This document shows positions 5,271-14,689 of a DNA stretch of 37,616 nucleotides, one piece after another. The notes under the pieces were generated by a model. The model was not told the origin of the DNA. It saw only the letters and a list, made by a program, of their open reading frames with translations, and did not search any database. The position numbers were made by a program, and so were the translations under genes. Every line of letters begins with the position of its first letter. Positions within the stretch are counted from its first letter, which is position 1. The stretch is from Gammaproteobacteria bacterium (lineage in GTDB: Bacteria > Pseudomonadota > Gammaproteobacteria > Arenicellales > Poriferihabitantaceae). The stretch is from the NCBI GenBank assembly GCA_009841725.1, contig VYGS01000120.1, positions 1 through 37,616 on the forward strand. Direction: 5' to 3'.

Positions 5271-6031
5271 ATGCGGCTGCGGACCTTCCCCTGGCTGGCC
5301 GGGTCGCGATAGTGACCGGAGGCTGCGGCGGCATCGGCCGGGCGATTTGCGACCGGCTTGTCCGGGAAGGCGCCCACGTGTTCGCGGCAGACCTCGTCGG
5401 GCATTGCGGCGCCGGGGTCAACTTTCACGAACATGACGTCACCAGCGAACAGAGCACGACCGATCTGATGGAGCGGGTGCGGACCGAGCATGGCCGGCTT
5501 GACATACTGGTCAACGTAGCCGGAATCGAAATCGAGCTCACGATCGAGGACACCACCCTGGATGACTGGAACCGCATCTTTTCGGTGAATGTCACCGGCA
5601 CGTTCCTGGCCTGCAAGCACGCCCTGCCCCTGATGCGCGAGGCCGGCCGCGGCTCGATCATCAATTTCGGATCCTACGACGGATTTATCGCCGACCCCCA
5701 GCTGGCCGCCTATTGCGCGACCAAGGGTGCGGTGCATGCCCTGACCCGGGCCATGGCCTGCGATCACGGGCCGGAGAACATCCGGGTCAACGCCGTCTGC
5801 CCCGGCTTTATCGACACGCCCATGCTGCAGAGCTTCTTCGGGGAGGCGGGCGACAGCGACAGGCTTTGGCAGGAGGCCCGGAACGTGCACCCGATCCGTC
5901 GCTACGGCACCCCTGAAGATGTCGCGAACCTGGTCAACTGGCTGGCCGGTGACGAGGCCGGATACGCGTCGGGACAGCTTTGGGTTCTGGACGGGGGACT
6001 GACCGCCCAGGTTCAGCAGATGCGACTGTAA
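5267..6031 (+). CDS. Short-chain dehydrogenase/reductase (SDR), first copy
   Basis: A 254-residue classical SDR, presumably an NAD(P)-dependent alcohol dehydrogenase. Cofactor motif T17-G-G-C-G-G-I-G24; N-V-A-G at 83-86 (usually NNAG); N108; catalytic S136, Y149 and K153 (Y-C-A-T-K); PG motif in NAVCPGFIDTPM. D42 after the second strand (AADL) suggests NAD preference. The start overlaps the Rieske stop by 4 bp, so the genes are translationally coupled. In this context it may oxidise a hydroxyl of the pathway intermediate, for example as a D-carnitine-type dehydrogenase, but that is inference. Confidence 0.9.
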   Translation: MNAAADLPLAGRVAIVTGGCGGIGRAICDRLVREGAHVFAADLVGHCGAGVNFHEHDVTSEQSTTDLMERVRTEHGRLDILVNVAGIEIELTIEDTTLDDWNRIFSVNVTGTFLACKHALPLMREAGRGSIINFGSYDGFIADPQLAAYCATKGAVHALTRAMACDHGPENIRVNAVCPGFIDTPMLQSFFGEAGDSDRLWQEARNVHPIRRYGTPEDVANLVNWLAGDEAGYASGQLWVLDGGLTAQVQQMRL

Positions 6032-9971: not shown

Positions 9972-10883
9972 ATGAAATACGACAGTGTACTTGAGTGCAT
10001 CGGGAGAACCCCGGTCGTGAGACTGAATCATCTGGGGCGCGATACCGGGGCCAACCTCTGGGTCAAGCTCGAGAGTTTCAATCCCGGAGGATCCGTCAAG
10101 GATCGTCCCGCGCTCAGGATGATCGAGGATGCCGAAGCCGACGGCAGGCTGAAGCCCGGTGACACCATCATCGAGCCGACTTCCGGAAATACGGGCATTG
10201 GACTCGCCATGGTTGCAGCAGTCAAGGGCTACCGGTCGGTTTTTGTCATGTCCGAGGACATGAGCGAGGAACGCAAGCTGATCCTCAAGATCTACGGGGC
10301 GGAAGTCATCCTGACGGCAGCCGAGAAGGGAACGGTGGGGGCGATCAAGGAGGCGCGGCGGCTTGAGCGGGAGAAGGGTTACTTTTTCGTGGGCCAGCAC
10401 TACAATCCGTCGAATCCGGAATCGCACCGTCAGACCGCCATGGAAATCCAGGCGGATTTCGGTTCCGGCCTCGATGCCCTGATCCTCACCACCGGAACCG
10501 GGGGGACGGTCAGCGGCCTGTGCAAGTATCTGCGGCCCGACAATCCGGATCTCGAGATCATCGCGACCGAGCCTGCCGACTCGCCGATTCTCAGCCAGGG
10601 GATTGCGCGAAAGCACAAGATCATGGGAACGGCGCCCGGTTTCATTCCCGATACGCTCGACATGAACGCGTTTGACAGGGTCGTGCAGGTCACCACCGAG
10701 CAGGCGTACAGCACCGCCCGCGACCTTGCGAAACGGGAAGGGATATTTTCCGGCATTTCGTGCGGGGCCGCGACCTGGGGCATGCTGGAATTGGCCCGGG
10801 GCGGAAATTATGCCGGCAAGAACCTGCTGGCCATCCTGCCGGATACCGGAGAGCGATACCTGAGCACCGACGTCTGGGAATAG
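9972..10883 (+). CDS. Cysteine synthase family protein (O-acetylserine sulfhydrylase-like)
   Basis: A 303-residue PLP enzyme of the beta-replacement group. The PLP lysine is K43 in N-P-G-G-S-V-K-D-R. PTSGNTGIGLA (69-79) is the substrate/PLP-ring loop, and TTGTGGTVSG binds the PLP phosphate. SGISCGAA and LPDTGERYLST near the end are typical of CysK/CysM. The family makes L-cysteine from O-acetylserine (or phosphoserine or sulfocysteine) and sulfide; some members are cystathionine beta-synthases or have special roles. The ATG at 9972 is chosen because upstream codons show no conservation. It is separated from the upstream operon by 415 bp and converges with the autotransporter gene. CysK versus CysM is not decidable by eye. 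Confidence 0.9.
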   Translation: MKYDSVLECIGRTPVVRLNHLGRDTGANLWVKLESFNPGGSVKDRPALRMIEDAEADGRLKPGDTIIEPTSGNTGIGLAMVAAVKGYRSVFVMSEDMSEERKLILKIYGAEVILTAAEKGTVGAIKEARRLEREKGYFFVGQHYNPSNPESHRQTAMEIQADFGSGLDALILTTGTGGTVSGLCKYLRPDNPDLEIIATEPADSPILSQGIARKHKIMGTAPGFIPDTLDMNAFDRVVQVTTEQAYSTARDLAKREGIFSGISCGAATWGMLELARGGNYAGKNLLAILPDTGERYLSTDVWE

Positions 10884-10918: not shown

Positions 10919-11041
10919 TCAGAACACCCGCCGCCAGCCTATCATGAACTGGGTGTAGGGTTCGGCGGTTGCCGAATGTCCCGGGTGACGTGTCAGGACC
11001 GCACCCAGCCGCAATTCTTCATCGGCTCCCAGTGCCCGGCG
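10919..11041 (-). pseudogene. Detached C-terminal barrel segment of the autotransporter (after in-frame TGA)
   Basis: Reading on in the same frame past the TGA at 11042-11044 gives 40 further codons and then TGA at 10919-10921. They include EELRLGAVLTRHPGH and end YTQFMIGWRRVF. The alternating hydrophobic pattern with a terminal Phe is the signature of the last strand of an outer-membrane beta-barrel. This is therefore the natural end of the upstream protein. It is separated either by a nonsense mutation, by stop-codon readthrough, or by a sequencing error. Confidence 0.75.
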
Positions 11042-13330
11042 TCAGTGAGCGGCCAGTTCGATTTGCCGGCCGGTCGGCTCAAGCGGCGCGCCCAAGTCCC
11101 GGTGCAGCAGCCCTCCGCTCCGGCCGAGGTCGACCGGGATCGAGAACCGGGCGTGCCCGCTCTCGACCCGAAGCGGCTGGGCCAGGGACAGTGTGAAGGA
11201 GGTCTTGTCATCCAGGTTGCGCAATGCCCTGATGGCAAAGGCGCTGGTGCTGAGCGGAGAGATTCCGACAATCATTCCGCCGTGTACAGACGGCGTCGCC
11301 CGGCCGATTTCGGCTCCGGCGCTGATTCGCCATGCGCCGATGCGTGCGGTGCCCTCGATGCCGGCGAACATTGAATCGGATTGCATGCGACCGAAGGCGC
11401 CGCTTGTCCGGCTGCGGAGCAGCGCCTTGCGCTCGCCCATCCAGCCGAGCCGTACCCTGATCGGCATGCCTGCGGGTTTCCACGACACCACGGCTCCCGA
11501 AACCGGGGCCTTCTGCTCCAGTCCTTCGTTTGAGAAAGCCGTGACAGTCCAGCCCTCGGGCTTCGTCCCGTTGAAGCCGATCGCCCTCCCGGCCAGCGAG
11601 AGATGTCCGCCGAGCGCATCCTCTACGGGTACGTCCAGTATCCCTATTCCCGGATGGGCCCAGCCATTGCCGGCTGCGGCACCGGTGTCGAAGCCGCCCA
11701 GCACCGGCCGCCACAAGGCGGTGTCGAGCCCGGTTCGCTCGGGCACCATGAACTGGCGCAGCCGGGCACCCGGCGAAAACCCCGGGGAGGCCGGGACAAG
11801 CCCAGACAGCGAATACCAGAACGGTGAGCCCAGATCGTCGAGCGCCACGATCTCCTGCTCTGCAAATGTGCGTGTCAGTCCGTCTCCGACAGCCTCGCCG
11901 GCGACAAGTCGTGTTTGGCCGATGTCGAACCCCGCGCCGTTGATCGAAACCCGGGTTGTACGCTGGGGCGAGACTGCCGCGGCGAGATCGAGCAGGCCGT
12001 GGCCGTAAATGCTGCTGTCGGCGTAGATGCCCCGATCGTTGGCTGTGCTCAGAAGCCGCGAGACCAGTTGGGTATTGGAAAGCCGGTCTCGAAAAAACTG
12101 TTTCATCACGAGCAGCGATCCGGTCACCATCGGGGCGGCGAAGGATGTGCCTGAGGGGTTGTAGGCACCCCTCGCGCCCGGGCTGTTGTCATTGGGATCG
12201 GGCCCGAAGTAGGCGGTCTGTATGCTCTGGCCCGGGGCCGCGATGCACGAGCTAGCGGCGAGGCCGCAGCGATTGCTGAAGTCCGCGATCGGGCCGCTGG
12301 AAGTGGTCGCCACAACCGCGAGCACGATCCCGCGCAACTCCGAAATCCGTGCGGGCAGCCCGGCAAGAAGCTCGGGAGATCTGGCATTCAGCTTGTAGGC
12401 TGTGCCCGGATCATTCGGGTCATCCGCTACGCACGGGCTGGCAGTCCCCGTGAAATCTGTCGGATCACAGGTATCCCCGTGGGAGTTGCCCGCTGAAAAT
12501 ACAAAGATCGTTTTTTTGTTTCGCCCCGATTGTGCCAGTGCGGGAATCAGACTGTCGAGCCCGTTTCGCAAGTCGGTCTCGCTGTACAGATCGATCATTC
12601 CCGGTATTGACAGGCTCAAATTCACGAAATCAAGCGTGCCTCGTGACCAGCTGATGAGACGGTTCACCCGATTCGTCCACGGGGTGTCTATGGCGGAAAA
12701 CAAAGTTGTCGAAATGGGATTGTAGTTGCCGCTCCCGGATCCCAAAGGCAACGCGAACATCGCGACATTGGCGCCCCAGGCGACGCCTCGGGCAGCATGC
12801 ACTTTCTCGATGAAATCGTTGTCGGTGGGGTTGCCTATGATTACGCCCGCAACCGCCGTGCCATGGGAAGAAACGTCGCCGGTCTCGTCGCTTGCGCCCC
12901 AGAATTCCTCGTGAATCGACTTGCCGGAGAATGCCGGATGGTGCCGATCAATTCCGGTATCGACCACGCCCACCGTCTGGCCGCTGCCGGGCCGGGTTCC
13001 GGCGCCAAGCGCCAGTTCAAGTTGCGCCCACGCCCGGTCCGCCCGGATCGCCTCCAGGCCCCACTGGTTGCTGAACGTCTCCTGCGCACTGTACCGTTCC
13101 TCGATCGACCTTCTGCGCGCAGTGTATTCATCCGATGCCAGACATCCGAAGGCGGTTCGATAGCAGACCGGTTCCCCGCCACCTCCCGCGGTGCCTCCGC
13201 CTCCGCCTCCGCAACCCGAAAAGAGTGGAGCCGTGCAAACAAGGAGAACCGCCGACCACAACCGGAACCGGCCACACGGATTACGGCAGGATTGCCGGAA
13301 TTCAGTATGATCTGGGCATTCCCAGGACAT
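11042..13330 (-). CDS. Subtilisin-family (S8) autotransporter serine protease, lipoprotein type, C-terminally interrupted
   Basis: A 762-residue secreted protease. The N-terminus has an Arg-containing stretch and a hydrophobic segment ending L-F-S-G-C, then a run of Gly: a lipoprotein signal followed by a flexible linker, as in surface-anchored subtilase autotransporters. The S8 triad is visible: Asp in VGVVDTGIDRHHPAF, His in DVSSHGTAVAGVI, Ser in NPSGTSFAAPMVTG. Oxyanion Asn lies in FVFSAGNSHGD. After about residue 450 comes a linker and a barrel-like autotransporter region. The frame is stopped by TGA 40 codons before the barrel's final strand, so barrel insertion should fail unless the stop is read through. 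The start overlaps the acyl-CoA dehydrogenase 3' end by 29 bp. Targets are unknown. Confidence 0.85.
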   Translation of the reverse strand: MSWECPDHTEFRQSCRNPCGRFRLWSAVLLVCTAPLFSGCGGGGGGTAGGGGEPVCYRTAFGCLASDEYTARRRSIEERYSAQETFSNQWGLEAIRADRAWAQLELALGAGTRPGSGQTVGVVDTGIDRHHPAFSGKSIHEEFWGASDETGDVSSHGTAVAGVIIGNPTDNDFIEKVHAARGVAWGANVAMFALPLGSGSGNYNPISTTLFSAIDTPWTNRVNRLISWSRGTLDFVNLSLSIPGMIDLYSETDLRNGLDSLIPALAQSGRNKKTIFVFSAGNSHGDTCDPTDFTGTASPCVADDPNDPGTAYKLNARSPELLAGLPARISELRGIVLAVVATTSSGPIADFSNRCGLAASSCIAAPGQSIQTAYFGPDPNDNSPGARGAYNPSGTSFAAPMVTGSLLVMKQFFRDRLSNTQLVSRLLSTANDRGIYADSSIYGHGLLDLAAAVSPQRTTRVSINGAGFDIGQTRLVAGEAVGDGLTRTFAEQEIVALDDLGSPFWYSLSGLVPASPGFSPGARLRQFMVPERTGLDTALWRPVLGGFDTGAAAGNGWAHPGIGILDVPVEDALGGHLSLAGRAIGFNGTKPEGWTVTAFSNEGLEQKAPVSGAVVSWKPAGMPIRVRLGWMGERKALLRSRTSGAFGRMQSDSMFAGIEGTARIGAWRISAGAEIGRATPSVHGGMIVGISPLSTSAFAIRALRNLDDKTSFTLSLAQPLRVESGHARFSIPVDLGRSGGLLHRDLGAPLEPTGRQIELAAH

Positions 13331-14459
13331 GTTCCGACAGGTAGCTCAGGATCAGGTTGGTGGAAATCGGCGCAACCTGGTAAAGCCGGGTTTCCCTGAA
13401 TTTCCGTTCCACGTCGAATTCTTCTGCGAACCCGAATCCTCCGTGTGTCTGCAGGCAGGCTTCCGCGGCTTCCCAGGAGGCGTCCGCCGCGAGCAGTTTC
13501 GCCATGTTCGCCTCCTCGCCGGGGTTGTGACCGTCGTCGTATCGTCGCGCCGCTTCCCTGAGCATCAACTCGGCAGCACGCATCCGGGCGTATGCCTTCG
13601 CGATCGGGAACTGTATTCCCTGGTTTTTTCCGATCGGCCTGTCGAATACCACGCGATCATTGGCATACGACACCGCCTTGTCGATGAACCATTTTGCATC
13701 CCCGATGCATTCGGCCGCGATCAGGATGCGCTCGGCATTCATTCCGGACAGGATGTATTGGAATCCCTTCCCCTCCTCTCCAATCAGGGCATCGGCAGGC
13801 ACCGGCATGTCCTCGAAGAATATCTCGGTGGTGGAATGGTTCATCATGGTTCGCAGGGGGCGAATCGCGAGATGCGCTGGCGGAATTTCGCGCATGTCCA
13901 CGAGCAGTACCGACAGGCCTTCCGATCTTTTTCTGCCCTGATCGATTGGCGTGGTGCGGCACAACAGCAGCATCAGATCGGAATGTTCGGCGCGCGAAAT
14001 CCAGATTTTCTGTCCGTTGACGATATAACGGTCGCCCTTTCGAACAGCCGTGGTGTGCAGGGAGGACGTGTCGGTGCCGCTGGTCGGTTCGGTCACACCG
14101 AACGCCTGGAGTCGAATCGAGCCGTCCGCGATCCCGGGCAGGTACCTTGCTTTCTGCTCGGCCGAGCCGTGGCGCAGTATGGTTCCCATGGTATACATTT
14201 GGGCATGGCAGGCCGCGGCGTTTCCGCCCGACCGGTGAATCTCTTCAAGAATCACCGCCGCGGCGCCTATCGGCAATTCGACTCCGCCGTATTGTTCGGG
14301 AATAAGTGCCCCGAGATAGCCGGAACGGGTCAGGGCCTCGACGAATTCGACCGGATAGGCGCGGTCGCGATCGCAACGCTGCCAGTATCCGGATCCGAAA
14401 TCGAGACAGAGCTTTCTCACTCCCTCGCGAATGTCTTCGTGATTGTTTTGGTCGCTCAT
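13302..14459 (-). CDS. Acyl-CoA dehydrogenase family protein
   Basis: A 385-residue flavoprotein that would introduce an alpha-beta double bond into a CoA thioester and pass electrons to ETF. The FAD-binding FGVTEPTSGTD (120-130) and GQKIWIS (149-155) are present. The C-terminal loop that carries the catalytic Glu in medium- and short-chain enzymes (Y-E-G) reads Y-Q-V. Instead, E243 in G-M-N-A-E-R-I sits where isovaleryl-CoA and long-chain dehydrogenases carry their base. The ATG at 14459 (MSDQNN) is preferred over a GTG at 14504. The gene runs in the same direction as acnX, with a 230-bp gap. Branched or short acyl-CoA is the likely substrate class; this is inference. Confidence 0.88.
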   Translation of the reverse strand: MSDQNNHEDIREGVRKLCLDFGSGYWQRCDRDRAYPVEFVEALTRSGYLGALIPEQYGGVELPIGAAAVILEEIHRSGGNAAACHAQMYTMGTILRHGSAEQKARYLPGIADGSIRLQAFGVTEPTSGTDTSSLHTTAVRKGDRYIVNGQKIWISRAEHSDLMLLLCRTTPIDQGRKRSEGLSVLLVDMREIPPAHLAIRPLRTMMNHSTTEIFFEDMPVPADALIGEEGKGFQYILSGMNAERILIAAECIGDAKWFIDKAVSYANDRVVFDRPIGKNQGIQFPIAKAYARMRAAELMLREAARRYDDGHNPGEEANMAKLLAADASWEAAEACLQTHGGFGFAEEFDVERKFRETRLYQVAPISTNLILSYLSEHVLGMPRSY

Positions 14460-14689
14460 GCAAGAGTGCCGGGAAATGATCAGGGTCGGGGCGAAAATCT
14501 CCACGAATTCGGGAGGATGGAACGACCCGAGTCGAAATGGAGGAGAGCCCCTTCACAAGGCGGTCCAAGATTACTGGATTCGGTTGACAAGTTCAAATTG
14601 CCGTCCGTGGTACTGTCCCGGCCCGGAATTTTCGGGACATCATTGCCCGGATTCCCGTCCGATTTCGAAGCGGGGAGGCGTTTTCTCGA

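Follow-up and report, generated by a model that had tools for sequence, protein, structure and literature searches.

Subtilase autotransporters of type Va, such as Ssp of Serratia and NalP of Neisseria, combine a peptidase S8 passenger with a C-terminal outer membrane β-barrel that has an aromatic end, and for NalP a lipoprotein-like N-terminus is described. In Brucella, autotransporter genes are reportedly found with nonsense mutations or as pseudogenes. A review describes the C-terminal β-signal strand of EspP and refers to work on an outer membrane protein whose C-terminal Phe is essential (PMC13067283). With respect to decoding, UGA with a following C has been documented to terminate translation inefficiently (PMC5289835), and particular forms of tRNA-Trp, with a 4-bp stem or G24A, have been linked to UGA readthrough (PMC13092985).

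The gene considered here shares with the type Va subtilase autotransporters the S8 passenger, the C-terminal barrel and the aromatic end, and its lipoprotein-like N-terminus resembles that of NalP, but the copy is truncated. It also differs from the classical autotransporters in its barrel, which porins match about as well as EspP or NalP do. The Pfam family PF03797 (Autotransporter) has no match in any of 30 family members, and we therefore call the protein autotransporter-like by architecture and fold only. As in the pseudogenised autotransporters of Brucella, a surface gene has been interrupted but can otherwise still be recognised; here, however, the lesion is one stop close to the 3′ end of the gene in the assembly of one uncultured genome. 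The bacterial systems of UGA readthrough or UGA-to-Trp reassignment (PMC13092985) likewise present UGA where relatives have Trp, but in our case a single gene is concerned, in a genome in which TGA is the main terminator, RF2 is present and the tRNA-Trp is ordinary.

A subtilase gene with an in-frame TGA

The window analysed is an entire contig of 37,616 nt from a draft genome (168 contigs, 93.8% complete), and the features discussed are collected in Table 1. An earlier note on this DNA had placed a TGA followed by C within the frame of a subtilase autotransporter, exactly 40 codons before a second TGA. These positions are right, with the gene lying on the minus strand. The extension that follows the first TGA (11044-11042) translates as RRALGADEELRLGAVLTRHPGHSATAEPYTQFMIGWRRVF and ends in ...YTQFMIGWRRVF before the second TGA (10921-10919); through the early stop, this surface-protease gene of an uncultured bacterium loses its final 41 amino acids. 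Open runs of this kind are common: in a sample of this genome that comprised 744 kb in 58 contigs or contig starts, an in-frame extension of at least 40 codons follows 182 of the 403 long ORFs, and it is therefore homology that carries the case for an interruption. Codon-usage scoring of the 3′ extensions had little power at 40 codons (5.5 bits), and its high scorers were mostly apparent same-frame downstream genes or shadow frames.

Table 1. Features of the subtilase locus and its neighbours, in positions of the window
Feature	Position	Strand	Basis or remark
Subtilase ORF up to the in-frame TGA, 762 aa	13330..11042	minus	
In-frame TGA, followed by C; Trp in homologues	11042..11044	minus	sequence and alignment
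40 further in-frame codons: last two barrel strands, final Phe	10922..11041	minus	
Second TGA, where 34/39 homologous copies stop	10919..10921	minus	
C-terminal outer membrane β-barrel, about residues 558-803, split by the TGA	10922..11659	minus	model
Peptidase S8 domain, residues 115-445	11996..12988	minus	
N-terminal lipoprotein-signal-like region, residues 1-40	13211..13330	minus	inferred by eye
Cysteine synthase-like gene, convergent neighbour	9972..10883	plus	in 7/7 genus genomes searched
Acyl-CoA dehydrogenase-like gene, upstream neighbour	13302..14504	minus	present in genus

Relatives of the subtilase were detected in 51 of 100 related genomes, mostly as distant ones, and an alignment query placed them in 79 loci of named genomes; a single-sequence query against the genome contigs had returned nothing. 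The nearest are only 46-54% identical. The column of the TGA holds Trp (TGG) in 29 of the 30 distinct copies that share at least 40% identity. Over some 59 distinct copies, counted after removal of four duplicate loci, Trp and other residues of hydrophobic or aromatic character predominate (8 Tyr and 5 Leu among them), and none has a stop. The second TGA coincides with the end of 34 of the 39 copies checked, all of these with a final Phe, and the C-termini of dozens of relatives can be aligned with the extension over its whole length. The earlier note had left it to the homologues to say whether the codon is normally a sense codon or the natural end of the gene; they speak for Trp, and none that we found ends at the first TGA. 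The stop thus lies upstream of the end common to the homologues, as is expected of a nonsense allele or pseudogene. Viral contigs did not contain an exact 30-mer taken from the tail.

Apart from the TGA the gene appears whole, as the note had supposed. D124, H156, N282 and S396 occupy the catalytic and oxyanion positions of subtilases and are invariant in the alignment, and the N-terminal region runs from basic to hydrophobic residues, then LFSGC and a run of Gly, a pattern repeated in the close relatives L031 and L068. Beyond the stop, the tail agrees with 13 of 17 conserved columns (mismatch rank 9 of 30), a larger deviation is found in 8 of the 29 relatives whose frame is intact, and block identity to the relatives is alike just upstream and just downstream of the TGA. 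Neither conserved columns nor block identity gave any sign that the 40 codons have decayed beyond the family norm, and it follows that the change, if real, either arose recently or coexists with other alleles in a mixed population.

The barrel and what the truncation removes

An AlphaFold2 model of the read-through product, built with 30 homologues (mean pLDDT 85, pTM 0.82), predicts a subtilase domain, a linker and an outer membrane β-barrel. The subtilase with a C-terminal outer membrane barrel that the note had recognised is accordingly upheld, with the S8 triad intact and the barrel identified by fold only, for the read-through reading. In a whole-protein fold search as well as in a profile search the autotransporter Ssp of Serratia (8e7f) came first, through its protease part. 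Modelled alone, the barrel matches outer membrane barrels in the PDB, namely porins and OmpG, and it superimposes on EspP in BAM complexes (8bnz; Z 12.6, rmsd 4.3, 230 residues) and on the NalP translocator (1uyn; Z 10.9, rmsd 5.3, 196 residues). For this C-terminal barrel (residues 558-803) none of the 30 members gave a Pfam match, and on the evidence of the model it may represent an undescribed barrel family.

In the model the TGA, at residue 763, falls inside the third-last strand (757-766), with strands 771-781 and 792-801 beyond it, so that the truncated product would lack half of that strand together with the last two. The view that the extension holds the final strand ending in Phe is therefore correct, but more than the last strand is predicted to be lost. 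By analogy with the published work cited in PMC13067283, a barrel deprived of its last strand and terminal Phe should fail to assemble.

Explanations for the stop

We consider it probable that the sequence records a nonsense allele, either recent or polymorphic among strains, of an otherwise intact gene. Its product would be a surface-directed subtilase with a C-terminal outer membrane barrel (autotransporter-like), and in the gene TGA stands where nearly all close relatives have a Trp codon. RF2 would terminate there, the released chain would lack the C-terminal Phe and both final strands, BAM should not assemble the truncated barrel, the protease would not be displayed, and the truncated chain would probably be degraded in the periplasm. 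If the TGA is real, this lineage no longer displays a surface protease that is kept by many related bacteria.

The chief alternative, to which we assign a smaller but appreciable share, is that the TGA is a consensus base error, or a chimeric consensus of mixed strains, and that the living cells carry a sense codon and an intact gene. The draft state of this fragmented, incomplete genome is in keeping with it, as is the TGA being the sole lesion with nothing decayed downstream, since a single change would be equally expected from a consensus error; nothing direct speaks against it. In short-read assemblies, should this be one, consensus base errors are usually rare. It is homology that shows the interruption. 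An ordinary broken copy or an assembly base error, rather than a new reading of the code, is the most likely explanation, because a stop at this column was seen in none of the relatives found.

Functional readthrough, in which a few ribosomes would insert Trp at the UGA and produce some full-length, surface-exposed protease, seems improbable to us. It would agree with the inefficiency of UGA followed by C (PMC5289835), with the ability of tRNA-Trp to misread UGA, and with the conservation of the 40 codons and the intact catalytic domain. However, programmed readthrough would go with a stop, and an extension beyond it, that are conserved among homologues, and none of the roughly 59 distinct copies has such a stop. 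The earlier note had called TGAC the leakiest context; its inefficiency is documented, but TGA followed by C ends more of the sampled genes in this genome than any other stop context does (84 of 403), and the context therefore singles out nothing. Since the supposedly leaky context and the open frame past the stop are both common in the genome, both call for caution. The decoding apparatus likewise argues against a special reading: the single tRNA-Trp found (CCA anticodon) pairs all five bases of its anticodon stem and carries G24, unlike the prone forms in PMC13092985, the gene for RF2 (prfB) scored above cut-off, and in this genome of about 94% completeness, in which one could be missed, we saw no tRNA with a UCA anticodon or other suppressor tRNA, and no tRNA-Sec reached the cut-off. 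Leakage at a basal level is to be expected at any such stop.

The suggestion of phase variation by decoding is not supported on these same grounds, namely the absence of a stop in any relative, the common stop context, the ordinary tRNA set and the presence of RF2, and no repeat tract is seen at the site. Phase variation through such a tract was rejected by eye, as neither a homopolymer nor a short repeat occurs at the stop, and reassignment of UGA to Trp (codes 4 and 25) finds no support, as TGA terminates 263 of the 403 sampled genes (65%) in a genome with prfB over cut-off. Programmed readthrough and a code change are thus not supported, while background leakage at this TGA is possible, as at any such codon. 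A more speculative variant, to which we attach still less probability than to functional readthrough, takes the stop as a recent adaptive change in the lineage and Trp misreading of the UGA as a low-level expression valve; if true, most chains would be truncated and degraded, and a few per cent completed and displayed. We give least credence to a functional 762-aa product, for example a periplasmic or lipid-anchored protease needing no barrel closure, which would suit the intact S8 domain and lipoprotein-like N-terminus but is opposed by the full barrel and terminal Phe kept in 34 of 39 copies and by a cut inside the third-last strand of the model, where no sensible domain boundary lies.

Genomic context and distribution

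The subtilase converges on the cysteine synthase-like gene, and the first 29 bases of its ORF lie within the end of the acyl-CoA dehydrogenase ORF. No terminator-like or promoter-like site was found at the locus between the two genes. A match to the subtilase occurs in only two of the seven genus genomes. In the sister genome G004 (L219, 467-2492), two other ORFs and no subtilase lie between the same two neighbours; named by eye, they read like prephenate dehydrogenase and prephenate dehydratase. Given the match in two of seven genomes and the other ORFs in the G004 interval, the subtilase is accessory or dispensable in the genus.

Reading frames broken by frameshift are seen in homologues as well (L067 at about 5730-5810, the second copy of L047 at about 4480, and L069 at about 1780-2000), and interrupted copies are therefore not rare in the draft genomes of the family. 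Tandem or multiple subtilase copies within one locus are present in L031, L039, L047 and L048. The full-length subtilase-barrel family (L031-L071) is found in draft genomes labelled with many phyla, including Alpha- and Gammaproteobacteria, Nitrospirales, Acidobacteria, Nitrospinota and cyanobacteria, among the last Candidatus Synechococcus spongiarum. This spread over phylum labels suggests exchange within shared, perhaps sponge-associated, communities.
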